From: Tremella fuciformis
Taxonomy: Eukaryota > Basidiomycota > Tremellomycetes > Tremellales > Tremellaceae
Assembly: GCA_032768795.1 (NCBI GenBank)
Contig: CP136491.1
Span: 2,108,001-2,172,000, forward strand
DNA length: 64,000 nucleotides
Direction: 5' to 3'
Each line of letters starts with the position of its first letter. Position 1 is the first letter of the stretch. Position numbers and translations under genes: made by a program. Shown piece after piece: positions 8,285 to 61,161 of this stretch. Under the pieces are notes generated by a model. It did not search any database. It saw only the letters and a list, made by a program, of their open reading frames with translations, and was not told where the DNA came from.

Positions 8285-10617
8285 CTACTCCACAATCTCA
8301 TTGAGGATGTCTCGCCAGAACGTGTCGTCATCGGAGAAAGCGATTCCCGTCGATGACTGCGCGATGGCGTTTGATCCTCTACCATCAGTTCCAAGCGGAT
8401 CCCACAGCCAACTGGTCTCGTCGACGGTTGGCGCAATTTCGGTCAGGGGTCTCTCTCGAAGACTACGGACGTGAGCTGCAGCCGCCCGCATCTCGGCCAA
8501 GTCTCGCCGGCGACTCCTTGCAGGCACATTGCCCTGCTCGGACATCCAGCGGAGGATATCATCGGACCGTGCCGCGTAACTCTCATCGACGATGATGGTG
8601 GGACAGGCGATAGATATCGTCAAAAGAACGAAGCTTGCCGAAAATACGGCCTGAAGGTCAGGAGTGAAGAACGGTTCTGATCTTGAGCTTTCGCTCCATC
8701 CCCACGTGTCACAAGGAGAAGCAGCTGACCTAACAAGTCGTCCTGCTGGAGCTTGGACAGGATACTCAATATCCCAACCGCAGAGCCCACGCACGTCTTG
8801 ATCAAAGTCATGAGAGATTCGGAGAAGGTTTTTACGACCACCTGTAACGGGTCCAGGGATTGCTTGAGGAGTACCAGAATGATTGGTCGAGCAGAAATGA
8901 TGATACACTGCTATCAGAGGGAGTCTTGACGGGGCTGCTACGCTGCTTACTTGATAATACAAGATGTACAGCGTCGCAGTGGTACGGGCGACACCGTTCG
9001 GTCTCTGGAGATTGATCGAGAAATCGCCCTGGAAATCGCCAGCGACGTCGAGCATGGAAGTGAACACATTCTGTATCCCGTCTACAAACCGTTTATCGAT
9101 GGTCTCATCAAGTCGGTACGCCGCTGCATCTATCAGCCTCAGAACTCGGCACGAACCCGAAATTGACTTGCCAGACATCACTTTCCCCTCTAAGGTGGCT
9201 AAACGAATATGAAGATTGAGAGCCGTACCACCGTCTCCTACCTCTGGTTTGGAGATATCGATGTCTTCGTCTCGGATACTGGTTGGAGTGCCTACGATGA
9301 CTGATAGCATCTTGTCGATAATGTAAATGGTCCACCAAGCTCGGCGGCGACGGATATACTCATGTCCGTCCAGGTCAATACCTGACTGCTCCCGATGCAT
9401 CCCGAGGGACAAAGCTATGCGGAGAGCCCGACCGATCTAGCAATCAGCTTGGAGGAAGCATGCGGACCGGAAAAACTCGCGTAATAATAGGCGCTAGCTC
9501 GCATGTCTAACGTGTTGAGGTAAAGGCTTATCATGCACAAGACCTCAATTTTCGTCACGGGATCCTGTCCCACGTCCAGATCATCCGACTGCAGCTGAAT
9601 CGCCCGCAAGAAATCGGTCGCTCCCGGAGGACCCAGTGCCGACGCACCTCGTTGGAGAAATAGCTTGCCGAATGCGATCACCAATAGGAGTTGGGCATGC
9701 CAGATGGAGTGCAAAGGGCGCTGATGACTGCCACTCTGATAGAAATCGTCGACTTGAGCCATAAATCTGTCCCTGTCAAAGACATGATACAGCTCTCCGA
9801 GATGGAAATAGGCTGTCTCTGCGAGATATTTGGTTCTTTGTAGAGGTGGTAGTTGAAAGGCTGTTGGGTCGCTGCCGAGGCCAATCGCATTTCGCACAGA
9901 CTCGGACCCCATGGTGTAAGTCTGTTCCTCGGAGTCAGGGACGAGGTTGAACGGTACATGATTGCCGATGACAGAGTGGAGGAAGGACCGGACATGCCAA
10001 CTGGAAGCCAGTGTTGATGAAGAGCCGAGGTAGCCTGCAATTCAGCCAGGTAGTTATCATCCGATCCCGCGAGAATCACGCTGTCGGGAGGACGAGTCAA
10101 TAGAGAAGAATGAATCCGGGAAAGTAAGCGGATTTCGGGTTGGCGCAATGCTGTCGTCGAGATTGCCTCCTAGTGGGACGGACGTAGGCAATCTCGGTGC
10201 GGATGTCGAGGCAGCAGCTAGCGGAGCATGAGGCGAGACCGACGTATGCGGGGTTTGTGTGATACCGTAGGCAGACAAGCTCGTCTGAGCTCCAGAGGGT
10301 GTAGTGGCATGGCGATCGATCTGGTTGACGAGGTGCTGGAGATACCTTTGCCTATCAGCCAGTGATCATCAACTATCGGATCGCCCCGACTTTTCCGAGA
10401 CAAGGACCTTCCGCTCCGCCTCCTCAAAAACGCAGTGTAAAGAGAGATCAACGCAGGCAGTGCATGGCTCGGTCCCAGAGCACTTGACCTTCTTCTGGCG
10501 ACAGCGAAGACATCTGACACTGTTCAGCTGGCGCGTCAAAGCATTGCAATGCTCAATCACGCATTGGCTATCCTGGTTCGGACTAGTGCGTGATTGTGTG
10601 GGTCGACTGGGCGCCAT
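8285..10617 (-). CDS. Zn2Cys6 fungal transcription factor
   Basis: The N-terminal exon encodes a zinc binuclear cluster, CLRCRQKKVKC followed by CTACVDLSLHC, after a likely 47-bp intron that ends just before CLRC. A low-complexity linker (STSAPRLPTS and similar) leads to a fungal-specific transcription-factor domain with the LGMHRE signature and RRAWWTIYIIDK. At least five introns are needed. One, about 53 bp at the ASFS/ALSLGMHRE junction near 9420, accounts for an apparent frameshift. A middle exon around 8620-8870 (VVKTFSESL...GQLL) is in a different frame from the C-terminal exon. The product should be nuclear and bind CGG-type sites. Its targets are unknown. Confidence 0.82.
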
Positions 10618-11558
10618 CACGACTTTGCTGTACCCGTTATCGCTAGTTTTGCTCTTAGGAAGGGGTCTCTGCGGTCTTTCCAGGCGCTCTGCTTCACATC
10701 ATTGGTCTTGCCAGTCGTCTTGAGAATAGAGGCCGAGTCCTCAAGACGACCCGGAAGAGCATCCCGGAGATCTCATCACGACTTGATTCGGCACGCCTAC
10801 GAGCGGGACATTCGTCTGGTACGCCTAATGAACAGGCCACCACTGACAGCCAGTGTTCTTGTTTGGCCGTCACTCTCCATCTTGCCCCGAGGTCGACCCG
10901 CAATTGGAATCCCATGAGTCTTGGAGCGCTCGAGCTAGCTGCATGGACCGCTCATCGTCAACGAAAGTGACCAGAACGCCAGGCATGCGCTTCTGATCAC
11001 CAGGCCGCATTTAGGATGATCATGATTCCCCTGAACTTGAGAATCGATTCCACCTCCATCCAACAACTTGCATCAGTTGCCCATGTCAGGCAACCGGACA
11101 GAGTCGAGGAGACAGTCTATGGAGACACGTGTCCAGCTCAAAGATCGATAACATGACCCAACAACGTGTTCTGGTCCGTTCTCCCAGGTCTTGTTCGACG
11201 ATATCTTCGGCAGCAGTCAATCATGGGATACACGTTCGACTTGATCTCACGAGTCTTGGCATTGACGGAGATCAGATCTGCGGGAGCCAAAGCCTACCCG
11301 CATCCCCTCTCATGCTCAGGCACATTTCAGCTCATCGCTGATGCCGAGATGACGCCAACGCATCGCTCTGGTGCCAAGAAGAACGTGCTCAAGTTGTACA
11401 ATAGCAAAAATGTGGTTGGCCGAACCAATCTGATTCCAGACGATCGGCTCTAGCGCTCTCAGTCACCCAATTGAACAACGACGGTGGTCGGCTGCACACT
11501 ATTAGTATCAAGCCCGACGGGCGGGTATCCGTCATGACCCCAAGTACATACGAGGACG
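10618..11558. other. Intergenic region between a Zn2Cys6 gene and the PhoD gene
   Basis: These 940 bp lie between two divergent starts. Short open frames exist on both strands but none shows a recognisable domain, consistent splice sites or a family-like sequence. It probably holds both promoters and 5' leaders. Confidence 0.4.
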
Positions 11559-21473: not shown

Positions 21474-23823
21474 TCATGGCCGTTCAGGTAATGCGTGATT
21501 AAAGTCCGGCATGTAATCCGGATACCCCAGGATGGATATTGGATCTTGCGTCTCCGCCCCCTGTGACTCGGTCAGACCGAAGAGGTGATCCAGTGTATGC
21601 CCTGTGTCGTCTTCTGAGCGGAAATTCAGGAAGTTCCAAAAGTCCATTGCCTCGGAATTGCGTCTCGTAGGAGCTGCTGATGGCCACAGAGAGACACCAT
21701 TGTCCGGTTCCAGCTGTTCTGGCCTCGTCTGCAGTGGGTCACTATGCGACTCTTCACGAGCCGTGTGCACCGAGTCCAACGTATTTGTACGATTCAAGTG
21801 TAGCGCAGGAGTGACGGTGTCGGAAAGATGTTGAGCACCGGCTGTGGACGGGATGACAGACGACAAGGGAGACTCCAGCTCCTTTTCGATGACAGCCAGT
21901 GCGCTGAGAGGGCCAAGATCCGGAGATGGTCGCCGGGAGACGAGCGGCCCGATCGAGCGCAATCTGAAGGCAATTAGTTGTAACAACCAGACGCAGCCTT
22001 CAAAACCTGCTCACGCCAAAGATTCGTTCTGAAGCAAAAGCTCGCCAAGACCTCCTCGATAGACAATCTTGCATGCGGAGGTGTGCTGCAATGTTTGAGC
22101 GCGGCACTCGAGACCAAGTTTGCCTCACATATCGACGACATACTTCGGACCCGGATGACAGCCGCCTCAGGCAGTCTAGGGAGATCTGGATAGACTCTCG
22201 TATAGTTGTGTCAGACAAACCGGCTTCCGCCGTGCTGTCGGGACTTCTTTGGGTTATGAGTACTTTGCACGCCTGAAAGGCGCACGTTCCCATGAAAGGG
22301 TCCATGATGAAGCCCCTATGAGGCAAAGCATCTCCAATCATCTGACATACGGCCGAAGCGTGGACAAGGCGCTGGACCTTTACGTGCCTTGCGAACACCT
22401 CTGGGGCTCCCGTTCCAGGTGGTAGGCGACGGATGATACCGTCAAGCTGATGTGTGTCGCACTGCAGCTGACGCAAGAAGACATGAAGGGTGAGAAAGGC
22501 TACACCTCTGGCCTCGCGATTCTTCTGGAAGAAGGCTGTCGGATGGTATCTCAGGGAGGCTGGCAATGAGGCCACCAGCTCGTCCATTGCCGCCTGAAGC
22601 TGAACGTATTCGCTGGAAGGATCCCATGGTGGTATGGTGGCAGTCCCCCGTATATAGCCCAGGATCCGGAGGCGAAGGGCACAGGCTCGAATCAAGTATG
22701 CGGACTCATCCAGCAACCCTAGCTCGCCATGGGCGATGGAATCGTCGGCCAGATACGCTGTTGCCCGAGGCGAACCGGCGACGAAAGCGGTCTCGGACGT
22801 GGGGAGACGAATGTGAAGACTCGAAGGTTGTATTTGGGGTATGTCGGCACGAATAGCTACGATCAGCTCACCCTATTCACTGGTGATCCGTTTTTGCCAA
22901 AGACGTACCGTTTATGAAGGAATCTTCAACAAACACCGACCAAGCCAGTCGCCGCCGAGTCTCTGCTCCGACGGTGACGAGACGGGTCGTTCCCGTACCG
23001 TCATCATTCGAGAGCAGAACCGCTTCCCATCTCTCCTCGTTCAGCTTGAGGGCAATGCTCATACGCGTCGCCATGCCGTGCAACAGCCATCCTGCTGTCC
23101 TAGCGCCTCGGTGGATCTCATATCGGACGAGCAGCATGACGACCTGTGCTTGAGCATGCTTGTACCACATGAAGTGAGCCAAGACGCCTACCATGAGATC
23201 CGTGGTGACGAAGCGACCAAAGACGACGTTCAGCAAGAGTTGCCTCGCCTCCAGCGCCCAAGCATCGGCGACCTTCAGTGATTCCGGTGAGGGATGGTCT
23301 CGTCCAAGTCTCACGACCGATGCGCAGACGGCCAGCAGTAGCACTCGGGGTGCCGTGCCGGATGTGACCAACGAGACCATGGTTGGTTCATGGATGAAGC
23401 TGGAACATGTGAGTTTGTCTTTCGGTAATCGACAGCACATGCCTACCTGAAGAAGAGCCCCTGATGGCACGTAGCAAAGTAGTCACTGAGCAGAGCGAGA
23501 ATGTGCGAGGTGGATGGCAGCTCGGGACCGAGATCCTCTTTAGGTCCCACTACCACTACCGACGTACTCGTAGCTGGTACGACGAATGACCCTTCGACGG
23601 AGACTACTGCTGCTTCATCCGGTGCACCCGCGATATTCAACCGTCTCCTTTTGGTCTCGTAGGTGCAGGCGATCTGTCGACGCCGACACCCACTGCATGT
23701 CTCATGCACACCCTTGCTATCGCACTTGTCCTTCCGACCCTTGCACTGATCACACGCGACCAACGTCCGGGGACCCGCGCGTTTGGGAACCGACTTGGGC
23801 GTCACATCGCCGAGGGGCTGCAT
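21474..23823 (-). CDS. Zn2Cys6 fungal transcription factor
   Basis: The N-terminus carries the binuclear zinc cluster CDQCKGRKDKCDSKG followed by CSGCRRRQIAC and a basic KRRRLN patch. Later exons give a fungal-specific transcription-factor domain (GWLLHGMATRMSIALKLNEE; RRRLAWSVFVEDSFING). The C-terminal tail is rich in Ser/Pro/Asp and acidic, as in activation domains, ending HALPERP. About three introns are needed (around 21985, 22720-22880 and 23450). The gene ends 38 bp from the sugar permease stop and is divergent from a DHA1-type MFS gene. Either neighbour could be its target, but this is not shown by the sequence. Confidence 0.83.
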
Positions 23824-24143
23824 GATGTCCGCAAGCCCCGGTGCTCTTCCACCGGCCCCAACATGGGCGTTGTCGTTCGAGTCGCGCGGCCGAGAAGAGA
23901 CAGTCGGGAGCCGGCGACGGACCCAAGACCGGGGCAGAGCAAGAGGTGAGAATGCAGAAGTAGCTCATGCACTCCATCTTCTGGGACCCCCGGAGGACCG
24001 GCGGGAAATGGCGGGAAATGGCGGGAAACGGCGGAAATAACGCCTGATCCACCATCTGAGCGCCGTTCTTTCCCGGGAGTTCGACTCTACAAACTTATGA
24101 GACAACGCGAGCCTGTCCAAAATGCGAGAGCATTTACGAGGGC
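23824..24143. promoter_or_regulatory. Divergent promoter with tandem GCGGGAAA-type repeats
   Basis: At 23999-24038 a 10-bp unit, GGCGGGAAAT, is repeated almost exactly three times and a fourth time in shortened form (GGCGGAAAT). It lies between a Zn2Cys6 regulator and an MFS permease. The unit contains a CGG triplet at a constant 10-bp period and also matches the E2F/MBF-like core GCGGGAAA. Which factor binds is unknown. The rest of the 320-bp region shows nothing recognisable. Confidence 0.5.
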
Positions 24144-50815: not shown

Positions 50816-51132
50816 CCACTTAGGTTTGGTAGCGCACGCTTCACTTATTCTAGTTTCTCGTATTCTCGTATTCTTGCGTTTCCGTATGCCCATGATCTAG
50901 GTACATCAGAGTTAGGCTTCAAGCCATCTCAGATATACGAAGGTACCCAGATATGTGAAGGTACCCCACCAAGTACACGCTCTTGTACCTCCACTTGCTT
51001 GTTAAGCAATACTCTTTATTTAGTCACTCCTGTAGTCATGTGAAGGGGATATAAACCCAGAGGTTTTGCCTCTGACACCCTTCTTCTCCAGCGATGGATC
51101 TCTATACTTTCTTCTACAGTTAAGTCACACAG
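50816..51132. other. Probable 5' LTR/leader of the second copia element (boundary unresolved)
   Basis: This stretch contains a TATA-like ggggatataaaccc (about 51044) followed by a pyrimidine-rich leader and leads into copia gag codons. It resembles the promoter part of the solo LTR at 60526, which has ggggatatatacccc. No clear TG...CA terminal repeat could be fixed, so the LTR limits are uncertain. Confidence 0.4.
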
Positions 51133-51351
51133 TTGGTTTCACCCAACACTCTCGTCCTAAGGCAGACTTCTAGGCTTTGCGAACCAGAGACTAAGCCCCT
51201 GGGCAGCCTCATTGAACCCCCTGGCAGCCTCATTGAACCCCCTGGCAGCCTCATTGAACCGATTTTGCCAATTTCAGCTGCAGACCAGCTAAAATTCGAT
51301 AAAGCGTTTTCGATAATTTTCCAGAGCCTCTCTGAGACCGTCCAGGCTGCC
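51133..51351 (+). pseudogene. Second copia element, gag 5' fragment
   Basis: The frame has a threefold GSLIEPP repeat and then the gag-like QLKFDKAFSIIFQSLSE. It is cut at TVQAA by the chromovirus inserted at 51352 and resumes in frame at 59709 with LPASVKDWTLPSP. No ATG is present at the start of the frame. Confidence 0.7.
51190..51262 (+). repeat. Tandem repeat in copia gag, about 24 bp x 3
   Basis: The unit ggcagcctcattgaaccccc occurs three times in direct tandem (the last copy ends differently), giving the amino acid repeat GSLIEPP. Probably a local duplication in the gag N-terminus. Confidence 0.8.
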
Positions 51352-52028
51352 TGTTACGACTCGAACCCGGCGGCCTTGGTGTCCGGCGACGAGTAGACGG
51401 CGGCGGTCGTACGTGGCGAGCTCGGGTTGTACCAAGGGCGAAGTGGGTACAACCACTGAACCTCGTGACTTGGTCGACGGCGAAGGTAGGACTTGCCTCA
51501 CACGGAGATAGGCGTCGTGGAGGTTTGGTGGCGGTGCTCGAAGGATCCCACGGAGATAGGCGTCGTGGCGAGCGGAGGTGGCGGAGCGAGCAACGATGAT
51601 AAAGTCAAGTGCAAGGCTCTAGGACTAGGGTGTAACGTATGACTGTCTAGATTGATAGAATTGATCCTTGGGGAAAAGGATCCTTGGGGCTGAACGTGCA
51701 GTCTTATATATGCCTCTGACCCGTTCAGGTGAACGCTTGGGCGTTCACATGAATTGTCCTTCCGTTCAAGTGAACACTTCCCCTTCCAGTAATAACTTCT
51801 CCTGTTCACTGAACGCTCAGGGTGTTCGCATGAACAGTTTGGTGTTCAGGTGAATGCTTGGGTGCGCCGTCCAAGGGGTCGGTTGTGCTCGGGTGAACGG
51901 TGGTGGTGATCGAGTGAACAGAGTTTGATGATCGGTGTTGATTGGGTGAACGGTTGGTGATCGGTGTTACGACCTGCAGTGGCGAAGACTGGCGGTGTTG
52001 CAGGTGGGCGGTGTGCAGGGTCGTAACA
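51352..52028 (-). repeat. Chromovirus 3' LTR (left copy)
   Basis: 677 bp, identical to the right copy except at one noticed position. In element orientation it holds a TATATAA box about 40 bp before the AAGGATCAATTCTAT segment that pairs with the primer site. The 51655-51669 segment is the plus-strand copy of that sequence. Confidence 0.95.
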
Positions 52029-52044
52029 GTATCCCCCTCCTCCT
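52029..52044 (-). other. Polypurine tract of the chromovirus
   Basis: In element orientation AGGAGGAGGGGGATAC directly precedes the 3' LTR, the expected plus-strand primer. Confidence 0.75.
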
Positions 52045-52388
52045 AAGCGCGAGCTCCTGCGAGCGGGGTAGAGGGATGGTAGGTGTTGAGAGTTTGCGGT
52101 GCATGCATGGGCTGTCGGTTCCCATGCATGGTCGGTCGTTGCATGCATGTTTGTATGCATGGGTGTTGTCGGAGATGCGTTCCATGCATCGGAGTTTGGC
52201 GGAAGTTGCCGGAAGACGGTGGAGGTTGCCGGAGATGGTGTCGGAATTTTTTAATTCGATTTTCTTGATTTTCTCCAAAAAGCGAAGCGGCCAAAAGGAA
52301 GGATTTGCCACCCTTCACTTTTGATGTTGTACTTCTTCTTTTTCCTTTGTTCAACTTCGACAGAATCGACAACTTCGATATATTTGCC
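52045..52388. promoter_or_regulatory. Leader of the opposite-strand genes with five ATGCAT palindromes
   Basis: Five ATGCAT hexamers occur within 87 bp (52103, 52124, 52143, 52155 and 52184), most as CATGCATG. A CT-rich run (about 52325-52350) and ttcgatatatttgcc follow, directly before the ATG of the first + strand gene. This is the likely + strand promoter. The ATGCAT cluster may be a protein-binding array. Confidence 0.45.
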
Positions 52389-53065
52389 ATGGCTCCAAAG
52401 TCGAAGAAGACTGCTTCGACTAGAGTTGTGGAGTCTCCACTCTCTTCGATTGGCGAAGCAGGCGGACCCATTGTCGAAGCTACTCCGGCTGGCGAAGTTC
52501 AAACTCCGGCTGTCGATGTTTCTCGAAGCAAAGTCGATCGTGACGAACGATACAAGCGGATGGTCGAATATGGCGAAGAGCTCAAGGGCTCTGGTAAGTT
52601 CGCTTTTCTTCGATGTTGATTGTTGCTGATTGTCCAGATCGCTGCTGGTGGTGCACGAAGCACGACGAAGTTTGCAAAGTCGTTGGCGAAGTCTTTCGAG
52701 CGAAGTTCCCCGACGAAGTGAAGCAGCTCTCTTCGCCCTCTTGCCACACCTGTGTGAAGCGAGGCAAGACGTGCGCTCGAACGATTGAGGCGAAGATGGT
52801 TGAAGATGACAAAGCGAAGATGGGTGGCAAAAAGCGCAAGGTATGTTCGATGTCGAAGGTTGGCGAAGCTGACAAATAGGTTGACGAAGTTGTGTCGATT
52901 GAGTATCGAACGAGCGATGCTCAGAAGGCGATTGTGTCGAAGCTCATCGAATATGTGGCGGAGTTTCGACCTGAGGCGACGACGGCGAGCAAGCTCGAAC
53001 GAATGGCGATGGAGGCGATTGACAAGGATGTGAAGTTGGCGAAGGAGTTGTTTGACTTGGAGTAG
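52389..53065 (+). CDS. Chromovirus accessory protein A, zinc-cluster-like, encoded antisense
   Basis: Three exons (52389-52593, 52638-52840 and 52880-53065) with canonical GT-AG introns of 44 and 39 bp, both with CTGAT/CTGAC branch points, give 197 residues. The N-terminus is basic and low-complexity. Cys71, Cys74 and Cys81 form CxxCx6C, and Cys104, Cys107 and Cys114 repeat it, followed by Lys-rich KMGGKKRK. The third exon is helical and charged (KLIEYVAEF; LERMAMEAIDKDVKLAKELFDLE). Two CxxCx6C halves resemble a spread-out Zn2Cys6 cluster, which suggests DNA binding. No known family was recognised. Consistent splicing across three frames argues against chance. It is read opposite to gag-pol. 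Confidence 0.72.
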
Positions 53066-53397
53066 GTGGCGAGATGGCGAAGTAGGCGAACTTGGTGGTA
53101 GATAGAAACGAAGCTGGATTCAACCCAGCGAAAATGCGATATGGTTCAACCCTCGCCCAAATAAATGTCGAAGTGCTTGAAGTGGGCGAAGAGCCTAGGC
53201 AAGGTGGCGATGACTGATGGCGGTTTGGCGATGTTCCCACACTAATGGTGCCTGTCAAGTGGCCTTTTGTTCGTGATTGACCGTGCGAGTTCGGGTGACT
53301 GTTCGGATGACCGCTCGAGTGACTTGTCGATGTCCGCGGTTGGTATATATATGGTCGGTGTGTCCGGCTGCTGCGTTGATGTTCGGTATTGATCGCA
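53066..53397. other. Spacer between the opposite-strand genes A and B
   Basis: About 330 bp without a convincing gene. A ttggtatatatatgg stretch near 53340 could be a TATA element for gene B, 58 bp upstream of its ATG. Confidence 0.4.
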
Positions 53398-54136
53398 ATG
53401 TCCGACTTTGTGTCTGATTTTGATGTCCTCCTGGGTGATCTTGGCGACTTCGCTTCTTCGGTGTTGTCCGACAGTGATGCAGTCACAATCGGTCCTTCGT
53501 TGTTGGGTAATTCGGTTGGTCGTGCATCCTCCGAGGATGCTTCGGTATTGCCAGGTGACTTTGATTGGACTGCATCCCTTGGAGATGGCGAAGAGGATGC
53601 GACCTTGGCAACAGGCTTGGGCCTGGTAGGTGGTTGTGGCTGGTTGAGGGTCGAGCTGACCGAAGATGCCGATGAATGCAATCACACCTGCGAACTTGCG
53701 CAACATTGGTGCGGTGGCTGCTTGTTCGCCTCAGCCCATTGCGGAGGGCCAGCACGGGCTTGAAGGAGGTCGCGATGTTGATACCGATGAAGAGACTGCA
53801 ACCGAAGTTGCTGCCAAGAGGGCCAAAGTGTCGGAGGTGACCATACGAAGGCATCGGAGGAAGGCGAAGTTATTGCGCCAAGGAGTCGAACTTCAACATC
53901 GCTGCGAACAATGTGTGGCGACCAAGCGAGTTTACTCGAAGTGTATCCAGCTAGGTGCTGGTACTGCTTGTCTTCGTTGCAACTCGCAAGGTTTACCTTG
54001 TTCGCTGTTGAATGGGGCGGAGTCGATGTCGGAGATGTTGAGTTCGTCAAGTCGGTCTTCCAACTCCACTGTGATGGGTGGTCCGGTCACGATCGTAGGT
54101 GATCGAAGTCTGGAGTTGGGTGAAGCTGAGTGGTAG
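53398..54136 (+). CDS. Chromovirus accessory protein B, zinc-cluster-like, encoded antisense
   Basis: Two exons (53398-53625 and 53735-54136) joined in phase 0 across a 109-bp intron give 209 residues. The first exon is strikingly acidic (MSDFVSDFDVLLGDLGDF and more Asp/Ser), like an activation domain. The second has a basic run IRRHRRKAKLLRQG, then Cys133, Cys136, Cys146, Cys155, Cys158 and Cys165 (CEQC...C, CLRCNSQGLPC), then a Ser-rich acidic tail. The acidic plus basic plus paired-CxxC layout recalls a transcription factor. It is not assignable to a known family by eye. A downstream open frame at 54146-54343 may be a further exon. Confidence 0.68.
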
Positions 54137-54145
54137 GCCCCAGCT

Positions 54146-54343
54146 ATGCTGATGAATGGGATGGTCGCTCCACATGTTCGCCAAGTCGATGTTGGTCCGC
54201 TTCGATTGCAGTTGGCGGAGTTGCAACATCGTGTGGAGGAGTACCACCAGGGTAGGGCGGCGCGCGAAGCAGCGGACTTCGTGGCTCGAACTGAGCTATG
54301 CCAGCAGATTGGTAGAATTCTGGCTGGTCTTCGCTCTTGCTGA
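54146..54343 (+). CDS. Possible small ORF or last exon of gene B
   Basis: A 65-codon frame with a heptad-like Leu pattern (PLRLQLAELQHRVEEYHQ...LCQQIGRILAGL) starts ten bases after the gene B stop. It could be a separate small coiled-coil protein or an exon joined by an intron I could not fix. It ends 89 bp from the convergent pol stop. Confidence 0.3.
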   Translation: MLMNGMVAPHVRQVDVGPLRLQLAELQHRVEEYHQGRAAREAADFVARTELCQQIGRILAGLRSC

Positions 54344-54431
54344 AGGTCGGTGATTGATGAAGATCCTGTCCGTGTCGAGGGTATAGTTCCGTATGTCGAA
54401 GATAGATGACCGTTTCCTGAAGTAGGGGTGA

Positions 54432-57400
54432 TCATGCACGGAGTTGATGTTCGCGGTCGAACTTGTCGAGGAGGTCTTGACAATGTTCCAGTTCGCTTGC
54501 ACCTTTCCACTCCGTTTCATCATACCCAAGGTATTTGATGAGATAACGGCGGGGTTCGGACATGCGTCGGTCGATTTTGGTGTCCAGGATTGCTTCGACT
54601 TCCCATTCCTCTTCACCTTCTATCTCCACAGGTGGAGGAGGTGGTTGATAGCGTGAAGGGATTTTGTTTGGCAAGTAAGGTGAAAGAAGTCGAACATGGA
54701 AGACATTGTGGATCTTCATGTTGCGGGGTAGGTCCAGGCGGTAGGCGTGACTTGAAATCTTCTGGGCAATTCGGTAGGGTCCCAGGTATCGGTTGTCGAG
54801 CTTCTTTGTAGGGCGTGTTGTTCGAATATGTTTGGCGGATAACCACACTTTGTCGCCCACACTGTATGTTGGTGTCGGCAGGTGATTCTTGTTGAACTGC
54901 GCAGCAGAGCTGTCCAGAGCCTTTTGTATCTCTTCCTTCAGGAAGGAATGCAATTGACCGAGGGCTTTGGCTGTAGCTTGTGCAGGTGGCGAATCTCCTG
55001 TGACTGTGGGTGGTGGTTCAAAACTGGCTCGAGGATGATAGCCTTTGTTGGCAAAGAAGGGTGAGACCGTTGTTGAAGAGTGCGGAGCGGAGTTATAGGC
55101 GAACTCCGCCATCGGTAATAAGTCGGCCCAGTCGGTTTGTTCGTAATTGGAGTAGATTCGAAGGTATTGCTCCAGCACTTGGTTGACTCGTTCGGTTTGT
55201 CCGTCGGTTTCCGGATGGAAAGCAGTGCTGAGGTGAAGGTCGATGTTGAGCAATTTGGTGAAGGATCGCCAGAAGTTGGAGGTGAATTCGGATCCTCGAT
55301 CGGATATGATTGAAGTTGGCACACCATGCTTTGCGAAGACATGGTGGAGATACAGTCGAGCAAGTTCCTCAGCGGTGAGGTTGGTGGTTGTCGGGACAAA
55401 GATTGCCATCTTTGTGAGGCGGTCGACAATGACAAGGATAGAGTTGTATCCTTTTGATTCGGGTAGGTGCTCGATGAGGTCCATGGAGATCGAAGACCAT
55501 GGATAAGGCGGAATTGGGAGCGACTTGAGTTCGCCAAATGGGAGGTGTCGGCGAGCCTTTGTCCTTTGGCAGACATCACAGGTGTCGACAAAGTGGTTGA
55601 CGAAGTCCTTCATACCTGGCCACCAATAGTGGCGCTTGGCAAGTTGGAGAGTCTTCCTTTGTCCAGGATGTCCAGCTGTTGGATGGTCGTGAACTTGTCG
55701 GATGACCATGACTCGTAAATCGTTGGCGTCTGGGATGTAGTATCGCTCCTCGTATCGGATAGTACCGTCGGTGTCCCGTCGAAGAGGTGGGGACAGATTG
55801 TCTAGCAGCTTTACTGCGTGAGGGTCCGCGGAGAGGGCGTCGCGGATGAGGACCACAAGATTGGTGGTGATGTCGAGAGTACCGCTAGCAAGGTATTGGC
55901 CATCTTTCAGGAGTTGCTGAAAGTTCTGTGGGTTGACAGTCCTGTCGAGTGAGGAACCTGTCTGGCCAGGATGATAGTCGGATCGGCGGGTGAGGGCGTC
56001 TGGTTTTGTCCCTTGAAGTCCCGGACGGTACCGAATGACGAAGTTGAAGTCGGCCAAGAATTCGGACCATCGGGCTTGTCGTCGATTGAGTTGCTTTGAA
56101 GTCACAAAGTACTCCAAGCTCCTGTGATCGGTATAGACCGTGATCGGATTTGCGGCTCCTTCGAGGTAGTGTCGCCATTCCTTGAACGAAGAGATGATAG
56201 CGAGCATCTCCTTGTCGTGTATCTCGTAATTGAGCTCAGCGGGACTCATTTTCCGGCTGAGGAAAGCAAGTGGGTGTAGGCTACCCGTGCTGTCTTGCTG
56301 CGATAGAATGCCTGCAATGGCATAGTCGGACGCATCCGTCTCCAAGATAAGGGGGAGAGTCGGATCGTAGTGCCGAAGAAGGTCGGCTGAAGTAAACGCT
56401 TGCTTGAGCGTGTCGAAGGCGGTTTGCTGTGAGGACTCCCAAGAGAAGGGGAGCTCCTTACGCGTGAGCTGCGTAAGGGGATGGGCGATTGTCGAGTAGT
56501 TTCGGATAAACCGTCGGTAGAAGTTGGCGAAGCCCAGGAAGGATCGAACATCGTGTAGGTTGCAAGGTGTGGGCCAGTCGAGGATGGACTGGACCTTCTT
56601 CTTGTCCATGGCGATTCCGTCGGGTGATATGACAAAGCCAAGGAACTCAACTGTGTCGGTGTCGAACTCGCATTTCTCGGCTTTGGCAAAGAGGCCGACT
56701 TGTCGGAGTCGGTGAAGTACTTGTCGAACGTGCTGTCGGTGGGTCTCAGCATCCGGGCTGAAGACTAGGATGTCGTCAAGGTAGACAATGACAAAGTGGT
56801 CGAGCATGTCCCTGAAGTTGTGGTTCATCAGGTGCTGGAAGGATGCCGGGGCGTTGGTGAGGCCAAACGGCATGACTCGGTATTCGAAGAGGCCATAGCG
56901 GGTGCGGAAGGCGGTTTTCCATTCTTCGCCTTTGGCTATGCGGAGTAGGTTGTATGCGCCTCGAAGATCGATTTTGGTGAATACCTTGGCGGAGCGGAGT
57001 CGGTCGAGGAGCTCCGAGATGAGTGGTAGTGGATATCGGTTCTTGATAGTGATCTTGTTCAAACCTCGGTAGTCGACACAGAGTCGCAGTGATCCGTCTT
57101 TCTTCTTGACAAAGAGTATGGGTGCTGCGGCTGGTGACTCTGAAGGGGTGATGAAGCCCTTCTTGAGGTTGTTGTCAAGATACTCTCGAAGAGTACCGAG
57201 TTCCTTGTCGGACAATGGGTAGATTGGCCCATAGGGTGGTTGCTTGCCTTCTTCCAAAGGGATGGTGTGGTCGAAGGATCGATGTGGTGGCAGTTGATCG
57301 GCGCTCTTCTTGCTGAAGACGTCGAGGTAGTCGTGGTATTTGGCAGGTACCAAACTGGAATCGGTTGGCGGTGGATCGATGGTGGTTGAAGTGGATGCGG

Positions 57401-57992
57401 AGCTAGCCGAAGCTAGGAAGGCAGGATCCGAAATGGTTGATGTGGAAGTCCGAGGTCGAATCCTGGAGCTGGGCCAAATGGTGCGGCGTGGCCAGCTGAT
57501 GAAAGGGTCGTGCTGCTCCAGCCAGGGCATACCAAGTACCACTGGGAAGACTCCAAGTTGAGTCACAAGGGCTCGGACCCAAAGATCTCCAAAGTTGGTA
57601 CAGTTGCCTAGGCGGATGACAGCGAAGTGGGTGATTGTTGAGGTTGAGCCGGCGCCATCAAGGAGGGATAGCGGGACGGCGTCTTGAGGGTGAAGTTCCA
57701 GTCCTTCACTTTTGGCAAAGTCTATGTCGATGAAATTGTTTGAAGCGCCAGAGTCAATCAGCGCGCGAGCGCGTTTTTGGGTTTCGGGTGTGTCGAACGT
57801 GATGAAGATGTGTCGGTCTTGAATTATTCGGAGATTATTGTCGTCTTCTATTCCAGTAGCGAGGTATTGAGGGACCTGCAGGCTTTTCTTCTCCAACCCC
57901 AGGCTCCCTTGTTGGGTAGGCTGGAGAATCACTCTTTTCCCGAAGGAGAAGAGCGGTTGCGCTGCGGTCGGGATGGTGGAGCAACTGGGCAC
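54432..57992 (-). CDS. Chromovirus Pol polyprotein with C-terminal chromodomain
   Basis: The frame is open over 1186 codons. In order it encodes aspartic protease (LIDSGASNNFI), reverse transcriptase (LCVDYRGLNKIT; VYLDDILVF), RNase H (LILETDASDYAIAG), an integrase zinc domain (HDHPTAGHPGQRKT...CDVCQRTK), an integrase core (MDLIEHLPES; DRGSEFTSNFW), a GPY-like module (LDNRYLGPYRIAQKI) and a chromodomain (WEVEAILDTKI; YLIKYLGYDETEW). Pol is in the -1 frame relative to gag and overlaps it by 64 bp, so it is probably made as Gag-Pol by frameshifting at 57935-57941. All catalytic motifs appear intact. Confidence 0.95.
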   Translation of the reverse strand: MPSCSTIPTAAQPLFSFGKRVILQPTQQGSLGLEKKSLQVPQYLATGIEDDNNLRIIQDRHIFITFDTPETQKRARALIDSGASNNFIDIDFAKSEGLELHPQDAVPLSLLDGAGSTSTITHFAVIRLGNCTNFGDLWVRALVTQLGVFPVVLGMPWLEQHDPFISWPRRTIWPSSRIRPRTSTSTISDPAFLASASSASTSTTIDPPPTDSSLVPAKYHDYLDVFSKKSADQLPPHRSFDHTIPLEEGKQPPYGPIYPLSDKELGTLREYLDNNLKKGFITPSESPAAAPILFVKKKDGSLRLCVDYRGLNKITIKNRYPLPLISELLDRLRSAKVFTKIDLRGAYNLLRIAKGEEWKTAFRTRYGLFEYRVMPFGLTNAPASFQHLMNHNFRDMLDHFVIVYLDDILVFSPDAETHRQHVRQVLHRLRQVGLFAKAEKCEFDTDTVEFLGFVISPDGIAMDKKKVQSILDWPTPCNLHDVRSFLGFANFYRRFIRNYSTIAHPLTQLTRKELPFSWESSQQTAFDTLKQAFTSADLLRHYDPTLPLILETDASDYAIAGILSQQDSTGSLHPLAFLSRKMSPAELNYEIHDKEMLAIISSFKEWRHYLEGAANPITVYTDHRSLEYFVTSKQLNRRQARWSEFLADFNFVIRYRPGLQGTKPDALTRRSDYHPGQTGSSLDRTVNPQNFQQLLKDGQYLASGTLDITTNLVVLIRDALSADPHAVKLLDNLSPPLRRDTDGTIRYEERYYIPDANDLRVMVIRQVHDHPTAGHPGQRKTLQLAKRHYWWPGMKDFVNHFVDTCDVCQRTKARRHLPFGELKSLPIPPYPWSSISMDLIEHLPESKGYNSILVIVDRLTKMAIFVPTTTNLTAEELARLYLHHVFAKHGVPTSIISDRGSEFTSNFWRSFTKLLNIDLHLSTAFHPETDGQTERVNQVLEQYLRIYSNYEQTDWADLLPMAEFAYNSAPHSSTTVSPFFANKGYHPRASFEPPPTVTGDSPPAQATAKALGQLHSFLKEEIQKALDSSAAQFNKNHLPTPTYSVGDKVWLSAKHIRTTRPTKKLDNRYLGPYRIAQKISSHAYRLDLPRNMKIHNVFHVRLLSPYLPNKIPSRYQPPPPPVEIEGEEEWEVEAILDTKIDRRMSEPRRYLIKYLGYDETEWKGASELEHCQDLLDKFDREHQLRA

Positions 57993-58966
57993 TCCTTGAC
58001 AGAGTGACCCTTCTCTGCACAGTAGAGACAGAGGTTGTTGTCCTTGCGGCGTTGGTATTCGTTGGGAGTGATGCGACCACGGCGGGTGAGGCGGTCCTTG
58101 GTGGTGAAGGAGGCCTTGAGGGTCTCCGTGGGTCGATTATAGGTCGATTCGGTGCGGACGGTCGAGTTGGTGGAAAATCCTGGTCGATTGTAGGTGCGGG
58201 TAAAGGTCCGTGCGCTTGACGCAGGAAGGGGGGTGAAGCGATCCCCCTTCTCAACCTGTCGTTCAAAGAGTCGAGTGTCGATGCGTATTGCAGCTTCTTG
58301 GAGTTCCACGAAGGAGGAAGGTTTCCCAATGCGGGATAGTTCGTCCTTCACGTTGTCCTTGAGTCCGCGGTAGAATTGGGCGGATTTGGCATCATCGTTC
58401 CACTTCACCAGGACAGCGTAGCGCATGAAGTCGGCGAGGTAGGCAGATGCTGAACCTCGCTGTCGAAGGCTGTAGAGTTGTCGTTCCGCGGTTGCAACTT
58501 CATCGGGGTCGCCAAATGTCTTGCGGAGTTCCATGCAGAACTTGTCGAAGTTTGACATGTAGTCCGGTTTTGGGTTGGCGATGACCGAAGGTTGGAACCA
58601 CAGGAAGGCGGTGTCGCGAAGGAAAGATCCAGCATAGAGGACCTTTGCTTCTTCGGTGGTGAAGCGGTTTGGTTGAAGTGTGATCACCATTGTGACCTGG
58701 GTGATGAAGGTGGACAACTTGTTTCGCTGCCCATGGTAGAATTCCGGGGGTGCCACTTTTGGTTCGCTGGTGCGGGTGGTAGTCGAGGTGGCGGTGGAGT
58801 CCGGAGAGTTTTGTCGAGGTGTGGCGGCATTGGTGGAGATGTTTGTGACAGTCTGTCGAAGATTGTCATTTTCGGATTGAAGTGTCGAAGTTTGAGTGAG
58901 CAAGCCTTGAAGCTGCTCCTCAAGCGCGGCGATGCGCTCTTGGTTGGTGCCAGCGGCGGGTGGCAT
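57929..58966 (-). CDS. Chromovirus Gag protein
   Basis: This 345-residue ORF starts with a coiled-coil (ERIAALEEQLQGLLTQ), followed by a capsid-like retrotransposon gag domain (KLSTFITQVTMVITLQPNRF; FCMELRKTFGDPDE; SARLADFMRYA-like) and a basic nucleocapsid with one zinc knuckle, CLYCAEKGHSVKEC. The stop TGA is at 57929-57931, just after the slippery heptamer. Confidence 0.93.
   Translation of the reverse strand: MPPAAGTNQERIAALEEQLQGLLTQTSTLQSENDNLRQTVTNISTNAATPRQNSPDSTATSTTTRTSEPKVAPPEFYHGQRNKLSTFITQVTMVITLQPNRFTTEEAKVLYAGSFLRDTAFLWFQPSVIANPKPDYMSNFDKFCMELRKTFGDPDEVATAERQLYSLRQRGSASAYLADFMRYAVLVKWNDDAKSAQFYRGLKDNVKDELSRIGKPSSFVELQEAAIRIDTRLFERQVEKGDRFTPLPASSARTFTRTYNRPGFSTNSTVRTESTYNRPTETLKASFTTKDRLTRRGRITPNEYQRRKDNNLCLYCAEKGHSVKECPVAPPSRPQRNRSSPSGKE
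57935..57941 (-). other. Probable -1 ribosomal frameshift site G GGA AAA
   Basis: In gag phase the codons read TC(G GGA AAA) GAG TGA, an X-XXY-YYZ slippery heptamer one codon before the gag stop. A -1 slip there enters the pol frame at RVILQP. This matches the frame offset measured between the gag and pol ORFs. Confidence 0.75.
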
Positions 58967-59009
58967 GGCGAAGGCAGTATAATCGATGAATGACCAAGCA
59001 CAAGATGTG

Positions 59010-59026
59010 AAGGATCAATTCTATAC
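59010..59026 (-). other. Primer-binding site complementary to the element's own LTR
   Basis: The bases directly after the 5' LTR in element orientation are GTATAGAATTGATCCTT. Fifteen of them are complementary to AAGGATCAATTCTAT within each LTR, just downstream of its TATA box. No tRNA-like TGG start is present. This is the arrangement of Tf1-type self-priming. Confidence 0.65.
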
Positions 59027-59703
59027 TGTTACGACTCGAACCCGGCGGCCTTGGTGTCCGGCGACGAGTAGACGGCGGCGGTCGTACGTGGCGAGCTCGG
59101 GTTGTACCAAGGGCAAAGTGGGTACAACCACTGAACCTCGTGACTTGGTCGACGGCGAAGGTAGGACTTGCCTCACACGGAGATAGGCGTCGTGGAGGTT
59201 TGGTGGCGGTGCTCGAAGGATCCCACGGAGATAGGCGTCGTGGCGAGCGGAGGTGGCGGAGCGAGCAACGATGATAAAGTCAAGTGCAAGGCTCTAGGAC
59301 TAGGGTGTAACGTATGACTGTCTAGATTGATAGAATTGATCCTTGGGGAAAAGGATCCTTGGGGCTGAACGTGCAGTCTTATATATGCCTCTGACCCGTT
59401 CAGGTGAACGCTTGGGCGTTCACATGAATTGTCCTTCCGTTCAAGTGAACACTTCCCCTTCCAGTAATAACTTCTCCTGTTCACTGAACGCTCAGGGTGT
59501 TCGCATGAACAGTTTGGTGTTCAGGTGAATGCTTGGGTGCGCCGTCCAAGGGGTCGGTTGTGCTCGGGTGAACGGTGGTGGTGATCGAGTGAACAGAGTT
59601 TGATGATCGGTGTTGATTGGGTGAACGGTTGGTGATCGGTGTTACGACCTGCAGTGGCGAAGACTGGCGGTGTTGCAGGTGGGCGGTGTGCAGGGTCGTA
59701 ACA
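59027..59703 (-). repeat. Chromovirus 5' LTR (right copy)
   Basis: 677 bp, TGTTACGA...TCGTAACA. The 59330-59344 segment is the LTR partner of the primer-binding site. The target duplication CTGCC follows at 59704-59708. Confidence 0.95.
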
Positions 59704-59708
59704 CTGCC

Positions 59709-60525: not shown

Positions 60526-61161
60526 TGTCATGACCCAGCAAGACATGGGAAGCAACAGAAAGCGACAGAGTGTTTCAGAATCACCAGATCCCAAGCCAGG
60601 AGATTACCTCGGTTCATCGAATCAACAACATCGTATCATCGATACGATGAAGATATGTTCTCGACACGAGCAGCCTAGGACATCGCTCTCTCGCCACAGC
60701 ATCAACCATCCTCTCTTATGATGTCAGAAGGAGAGGGGGAGATATCATCGGATCCGACGGGCCTTTGTAACGATGGAAGATACTGACGGATGGACAGGAG
60801 AAACGTCGCCACGTGAAGGGGATATATACCCCCTCCGCTGGCCGTGAAGAATCCTTTTCCCAAGGATCAAAATATCTCTAGTCTGATAGCTCACTCATAG
60901 CCTCACACTTCTTCTAGTGTGACTTGTAGTCTTGACTTGCACCCTCCTTGCGCTATCAGTCTTTTGTCACGTCACCACAGACCCACCTCCTTTGCCACCA
61001 CCAGTAGCTTGCCGGATCCTTCCAAGCTACCACTTGTCGTCCACTCACCAATCACTTTGAGGCTTACCTCCTCTGTGTAAGTACCACCTTAAACCGTCTT
61101 ATTCGCCCCTGTCTCCATTTGTATAGTCTAGGTCTGGTGGGGACAGGCCCGTGACAGCCAC
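60521..61161 (+). mobile_element. Solo LTR with GCCAC target duplication, inside copia protease
   Basis: A 631-bp element (60526-61156) begins TGTCATG and ends CGTGACA and is flanked by GCCAC at 60521-60525 and 61157-61161. Removing it restores the protease segment DSGATHHMCHDAQ. It has a TATA-like ggatatatacccc at about 60822. It is different in sequence from the solo LTR at 48800. Confidence 0.9.

Follow-up and report, generated by a model that had tools for sequence, protein, structure and literature searches.

Two predicted spliced antisense genes with zinc-cluster-like cysteine patterns in a chromovirus of Tremella fuciformis

Structure of the element and of its antisense genes

The stretch of Tremella fuciformis DNA analysed here (64 kb of contig CP136491.1, positions 2,108,001 to 2,172,000; hereafter the window) contains, at 51352-59703, a single Ty3/gypsy chromovirus that reads on the minus strand. 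Its pol open reading frame (ORF; 54432-57992, minus strand) encodes protease, reverse transcriptase, RNase H, integrase and chromodomain, and RVT_1, RNase H, Integrase_H2C2, rve and Chromo were detected above the Pfam cut-off. The 3' and 5' long terminal repeats (LTRs; minus strand, 51352-52028 and 59027-59703, respectively) are identical at 676 of 677 bases, with 1 difference, and the 5-bp target duplication CTGCC lies outside them (51347-51351 and 59704-59708). Reverse transcriptase, RNase H, integrase and a C-terminal chromodomain in a single pol, together with paired LTRs and a target duplication, identify the element as a Ty3/gypsy chromovirus, and its nearly identical LTRs suggest that it inserted recently. 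A stretch of 2.4 kb separates pol from the 3' LTR and contains two spliced genes, A and B, antisense to gag-pol. The element had been claimed in a sequence-only reading of the DNA; the Pfam matches, the LTRs and the target duplication confirmed it.

Gene A (52389-53065, plus strand) was resolved by frame analysis and a spliced-ORF search into three exons separated by two frame-restoring GT-AG introns, which confirmed the earlier model. Exon 1 (52389-52593) is followed by a 44-nt intron (52594-52637, GTAAGT...GCTGAT...CAG). Exon 2 (52638-52840) encodes six cysteines, aligned as CX2CX6CX22CX2CX6C, and a basic KKRK stretch. After a second intron of 39 nt (52841-52879, GTATGT...GCTGAC...TAG), exon 3 (52880-53065) carries the stop codon, giving a protein of 197 aa. 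Both introns have GCTGA close to the acceptor, and their splice sites are intact in a second copy.

The start of exon 1 proposed for gene B was retained and the rest of its structure was revised: instead of one intron and an end at 54136, the gene has three exons, two introns and an end at 54343 (plus strand). Exon 1 (53398-53625), which encodes the acidic N-terminus, was defined by comparison with relatives and by the spliced-ORF search. A 109-nt intron at 53626-53734 was rejected because it removes conserved residues, and an intron of 40 nt (53626-53665) was preferred on the basis of the same search and of P0001, an ORF from another source. Of the 23 residues that follow directly on 53666, P0001 matches 17, compared with 116 of 143 over the whole exon. 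The 40-nt intron also keeps the reading frame and is similar in length to the other introns (44, 39 and 42 nt). Exon 2 (53666-54094) encodes six cysteines aligned as CX2CX9CX8CX2CX6C. The TAG ending at 54136 was rejected as stop codon, since it is the acceptor of the 42-nt intron 2 (54095-54136, GTAGGT...GCTGAG...TAG), which was recovered from the relatives, the spliced-ORF search and P0001. Across intron 2, P0001 agrees at 7 of 13 residues, with VGD at the donor and GEAE in the branch region. Exon 3 (54137-54343) contains the stop codon, completes a protein of 287 aa and is conserved in the related copies L006, L008 and L012; in L006 the intron stands at the corresponding place and in identical phase.

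Relatives, selection and chance controls

The genome (28.1 Mb, 11 contigs) was searched with a pol query, by which 39 places were scored out of 582 candidates; all counts given here are lower bounds. Complete tails, the part beyond pol, were represented by one of 12 copies of the L019 type and one of 11 copies of the L032 type. A twin of the window element on contig C5 (L002, 98% identical) carries both A and B, as the window element does. Among five copies with a pol about 85% identical, L006, L008 and L012 carry both genes, and L007 and a copy on C4 lack both. The splice sites are intact in L002, L008 and L012, the close copies that were compared. By the position and orientation of these conserved coding genes, antisense between pol and the 3' LTR, the window element is placed in the class of elements with antisense extra ORFs; L007 and the C4 copy have lost this feature.

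Relatives in diverged families lie on the same strand, antisense to gag-pol, and share the six cysteines. Two such ORFs are present in L009 and at least one each in L018 and L010; the loop of L010 was too long for the cysteine scan, and its sequence was aligned instead. L015 and L016 have an ORF with the cysteines, judged by eye, and L032 a split motif, by eye only. For L019 a four-exon model of 513 residues was obtained, in which the cysteines are split by an intron, and pieces of it are also found in the interrupted copy L031. In the tails covered by the scan, which is blind to motifs split by introns, the sense strand gave no unsplit motif. On the antisense strand, L006, L008 and L012 each have one six-cysteine match within their CATGCA array, which by eye was taken for a chance occurrence.

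In alignments of 9 and 11 segments the six cysteines are the only invariant columns. Since most of these segments were chosen by motif, this invariance shows alignability and not independent conservation. Independent evidence of conservation is given by the match between the B proteins of the window and L006 (E 5e-28) and by P0001 and P0002, found by sequence search; matches in the protein-database searches were limited to these two (source 'lgn'). B is conserved at the protein level without nucleotide similarity. The sequence-only reading had named loss of the frames or cysteines in sibling copies as evidence against itself; both are conserved in the relatives.

The spliced-ORF search required short GT-AG introns with a branch-like motif, and its donor patterns included GTTGG, already seen in L006. 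It returned the same models for A (197 aa) and B (287 aa) of the window; as the branch motif was demanded, its presence in these models is no independent evidence. For B of L006 it found the same introns and an ATG further upstream. Longer two-exon variants were preferred by the search for L009-A and L018, so that the complete single-exon L018 used below is our own choice, and no convincing model was returned by it for L015, L016 or L032. Dinucleotide shuffles never reached the antisense spliced-ORF score in the tails of the window element, L006, L018 and L019 (0 of 100 each), and reached it once in 100 for L009 and L032 and three times in 100 for L010.

In gene A, L006 and L008 differ by 15 synonymous and 6 nonsynonymous changes, and the window and L002 by 5 and 4, respectively. 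The corresponding counts for the exons shared by L019 and L031 are 62/32, 23/6 and 32/28. Where changes were numerous enough, the ratio of nonsynonymous to synonymous substitution (dN/dS) was 0.06-0.26 for the antisense genes, compared with 0.06-0.17 for pol; in the remaining two plus-strand frames of these pairs the ratio of the respective proportions (pN/pS) was at least 0.95. Purifying selection on A and its relatives is shown by these computations. Between the window and L006, gene B has a dN/dS of 0.32, with near-saturated dS, and a protein identity of 42%, compared with 85% for pol. Silent divergence differs from segment to segment (L006/L008: A 0.161, B 0.011, pol 0.037; window/L006: B 1.85, pol 0.60), which suggests that segments were exchanged or recombined between element copies.

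Codon-level selection in the antisense frame, as well as the maintenance of B as a protein without nucleotide similarity, argues against an explanation in which the antisense transcript itself is selected, for control of gag-pol by double-stranded or small RNA, and the proteins are secondary. Such control is proposed for plant antisense ORFs in PMC7264820; for A and B it is considered very improbable. Even less credible is the explanation that A and B arose as ORFs by chance, or were captured from the host a short time ago and have no function. It could draw on the long sense-strand ORF in L006 and on the existence of ordinary host Zn2Cys6 genes, two of them in the window. The unsplit six-cysteine motif, however, occurs four times in the 64-kb window, twice in these host genes and once each in A and B, which is more than chance. 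Also opposed to it are purifying selection and conservation over diverged families, the absence of any shuffle matching the window tail score, and the position of A and B below the host-type Zn_clus profile. The two host genes are located on the minus strand at 10372-10698 and 23446-23964 and scored 40 and 30 bits in Pfam, respectively.

Further observations concern the insertion and its setting. Fifteen bases, AAGGATCAATTCTAT, at sense position 360 of the LTR and 41 bases past the TATA box, are complementary to 59010-59024, 2 bases downstream of the 5' LTR; this complementarity probably reflects self-priming of the Tf1 type. The left flank (50903-51203) is 88% identical to the flank of L007 over 308 columns, and because of this likeness both elements seem to have inserted in copies of one repeat. 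A solo LTR at 60526-61156 belongs to the chromovirus family of L010, to which its matched parts are 98% identical, and has GCCAC on either side. It sits within a putative Ty1/copia element, assigned to copia by reading alone.

Likeness to zinc-cluster proteins and candidate regulatory DNA

Zn2Cys6 domains have the spacing CX2CX6CX5-16CX2CX6-8C. L018 and L009-A conform to it; A has a loop of 22 residues, and B has 9 residues between cysteines 2 and 3. In the Pfam scan of A, B and their relatives no family exceeded its cut-off. For Zn2Cys6 (PF00172, cut-off 21 bits) the best relative, L009-A, reached 12.9 bits and A and B gave no match, compared with the 40 and 30 bits of the host controls. When a nine-segment profile was compared with the PDB, GAL4 and LEU3 accounted for 5 of the 10 matches (best E 0.035), amid unrelated proteins of similar E. 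Alignment of A2 with the N-terminus of GAL4 by hhalign gave a probability of 27.8, with the cysteines aligned.

The uninterrupted ORF of L018 was modelled with a mean predicted local distance difference test score (pLDDT) of 79.7 and consists of a helix, a cysteine domain with two short helices, and long helices. With this model, the first six of nine Foldseek rows were Zn2Cys6 proteins (E 0.13-3.1), as were all nine rows of VIA-align, and the fold is likened, with weak scores, to the Zn2Cys6 domains and coiled coil of GAL4, PUT3 and PPR1. For exon 2 of gene B, a second structural comparison gave PPR1 and Pho7. The features apparently shared with GAL4, PUT3, PPR1 and LEU3 (PF00172) are the CX2C...C...CX2C...C pattern, two short helices after the CX2C pairs and a following coiled coil, the latter two taken from the L018 model. 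A and B differ from these regulators in their scores below the Pfam threshold, their longer loops (A 22, B 9) and their location in a mobile element. Each score being weak, the weight lies in the agreement between the methods; the A and B proteins probably work like Zn2Cys6 regulators, with membership of PF00172 not established.

The bZIP domain of Pfam had no match in A or the corrected B. Weak profile likeness of B and its relatives to DUF3716 (PF12511) stayed below the cut-off of 22 bits, with 12.6 bits for the corrected B and 12.9 bits for B of L006. A B-like ORF at C3:10140 came closer (E 8.6e-4, 19.6 bits). At this locus (L047/L048, C3:5600-11200) the B-like, DUF3716-like ORF stands beside an ORF that resembles an OTU protease on reading, and no pol of chromovirus type was found in the stretch examined; the locus may be a further mobile element that carries this zinc domain. 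A DUF3716 match at C1:3911081, just above the cut-off (22.3 with neighbours), was dismissed by eye, as it lies opposite a protein-kinase-like ORF.

Repeated motifs were found in the DNA next to both putative promoter regions. In the U3 part of the LTR, GTTCANNTGAA is present four times, and in none of 200 shuffles. TCRVRTGA, a looser motif that was defined only after the sequence had been inspected, is present seven times per LTR and three times before gene B, all on the plus strand, and three more times in pol. The seven U3 sites (51725-51917) lie upstream of the gag-pol TATA box, which is at LTR base 319. The three sites before gene B (53291-53322) are spaced 12 nt apart, just upstream of a TATA-like box (53344-53351) that precedes the ATG by 54 nt. 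TATA-like boxes were found within 130 nt before 5 of the 10 antisense genes examined. Between the polypurine tract and gene A, ten overlapping CATGCA positions on both strands (52100-52188) were counted, as many as in L006 and compared with about 0.3 in shuffles.

Proposed role and comparison with known systems

On balance, and with modest confidence, A and B are regarded as element-encoded accessory genes for Zn2Cys6-like putative regulators of the element's own transcription. We infer that both would be transcribed from promoters within the element, on the strand opposite to gag-pol, and spliced by the host. Their products would be small GAL4-like proteins, putatively binding zinc and DNA. 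Both have basic stretches and helical parts that probably serve dimerisation, and B has in addition an acidic N-terminus. They may control transcription of the element through the candidate sites arrayed in U3 before the gag-pol TATA box and upstream of gene B; B is the likelier activator, and A may be a partner or a repressor. Regulation of transcription would be the simplest role for conserved proteins of DNA-binding-like make-up, and the element itself contains the closest candidate sites.

A DNA-binding-like make-up would fit equally well if A and B acted on the host, either relieving the element from silencing or altering host genes, as factors that bind DNA or chromatin factors. The faster divergence of B relative to pol would also be expected in an arms race. 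The U3 of the element itself, in turn, has diverged past blastn similarity, and the arrays are located in element DNA, so that action on the host is considered unlikely.

Several observations weigh against A and B as regulators of their own element. All structure scores are weak, the model of gene B exon 2 is poor (63.5) and gave no match in Foldseek, and neither A nor B reached Pfam Zn_clus, by which the two host genes in the window were found at once. The TCRVRTGA motif, defined post hoc, shows no enrichment in the window at large (50 vs 41 expected), and the U3 repeat of L006 is a different one, with eight CAGGTG (three in the window U3). Repeated 6-mers are found in the gene-less tails of L017 and L013, and no array is seen in the gene-bearing L010 or in the U3 of L009; the arrays are therefore no proof of a regulator. 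The tails of L013, L014 and L017 are short, and the unsplit six-cysteine motif was not found there. In the tail of L006 the spliced ORF is longer on the gag-pol-sense strand (456) than on the antisense strand (273). A complementary frame sharing third positions also has a low pN/pS, which for A in the window/L002 pair is even lower (0.18 vs 0.24), and the close pairs of gene B have too few changes to test B alone (2 vs 1 and 2 vs 2; totals 3 and 4). Finally, L007 and the degenerate C4 copy (L049, C4:133590-134300) share the deletion junction of A and B, with breakpoints equal within two bases. L007 has an uninterrupted pol frame and LTRs that are 99.8% identical over 421 bases. The occurrence of one deletion junction at two loci indicates that A and B are dispensable in cis for movement; the deleted derivatives might be supplied in trans by copies bearing A and B.

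The same derivatives bear on a further explanation, according to which A and B serve replication, for example by bringing the pre-integration complex into the nucleus, by directing integration or, through the zinc domain, as nucleic-acid chaperones. The genes adjoin pol, and a KKRKV stretch resembling a nuclear localisation signal is present in A of both families (window and L006). The existence of derivatives without A and B at two loci and the combination of six cysteines with a coiled coil, as in GAL4-type regulators, make a replicative role improbable.

The proposal that antisense orientation matters for the introns of A and B fits the copies compared. Genomic RNA would bear the reverse complement of the splice sites, and the introns would not be recognised and would survive reverse transcription. 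The intact splice sites in L002, L008 and L012 are consistent with this. The suggestion that the layout is peculiar to this element did not hold, as antisense extra genes are a known kind. The closest known case is brtn of the Boty-like gypsy elements of Botrytis (PMC8365987, PMC4227169 and PMC7264820), an extra antisense gene in a fungal gag-pol element with chromodomain, placed by PMC7264820 between pol and the 3' LTR. Compared with brtn, known here by description only, the present genes are spliced, often two per element and of Zn2Cys6-like pattern. Plant antisense extra ORFs, such as Grande gene23, RIRE2 and Retand TRP28 (PMC7264820 and PMC11963269), share location, orientation and conservation over families. 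For gene23 an own promoter and a nuclear product are reported there, and TRP28 is predicted to bind DNA; TRP28 contains another domain (PF04195), and the hosts of these plant ORFs belong to a different kingdom. The Retand paper makes no use of the word 'intron' in its main text, and the main text of PMC3248453 gave no match for antisense or zinc. A review (PMC7264820) states that it is not known what the antisense extra genes of LTR elements do. None of the titles and abstract openings covered by the literature search, which excluded most subscription journals, describes antisense genes of spliced or zinc-cluster type in LTR elements of fungi. What seems to be new is that the genes are spliced, are of zinc-cluster type and occur across several chromovirus lineages of one genome.

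HBZ of human T-cell leukaemia virus type 1 (HTLV-1) is a spliced antisense gene of an LTR element, encoding a bZIP regulator from a promoter in the 3' LTR. As is proposed for gene B, it combines spliced antisense coding with a regulator having an activation-type N-terminus and a dimerising helix. It differs by its bZIP instead of a zinc cluster, and by its 3' LTR promoter in place of the TATA-like box that gene B has inside the element. The HTLV antisense promoter is mentioned in PMC7264820. As a tentative extension, fungal chromoviruses may commonly carry a two-way switch, in which spliced antisense GAL4-like regulators bind arrays in the LTR and in their own promoter. Such a circuit would be similar to that of Tax and HBZ, would have arisen independently on the basis of a fungal transcription-factor fold, would survive retrotransposition by virtue of its antisense introns and could be shared in trans with deleted relatives.

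As A and B are spliced, A is under purifying selection, and both resemble the best-studied fungal class of DNA-binding proteins, the question of their function is directly testable. Laboratory retrotransposition markers use antisense introns; if the present reading is true, natural elements would use the same trick. Some fungal retroelements would then encode their own transcription factors, and annotation may mis-file these as host genes.

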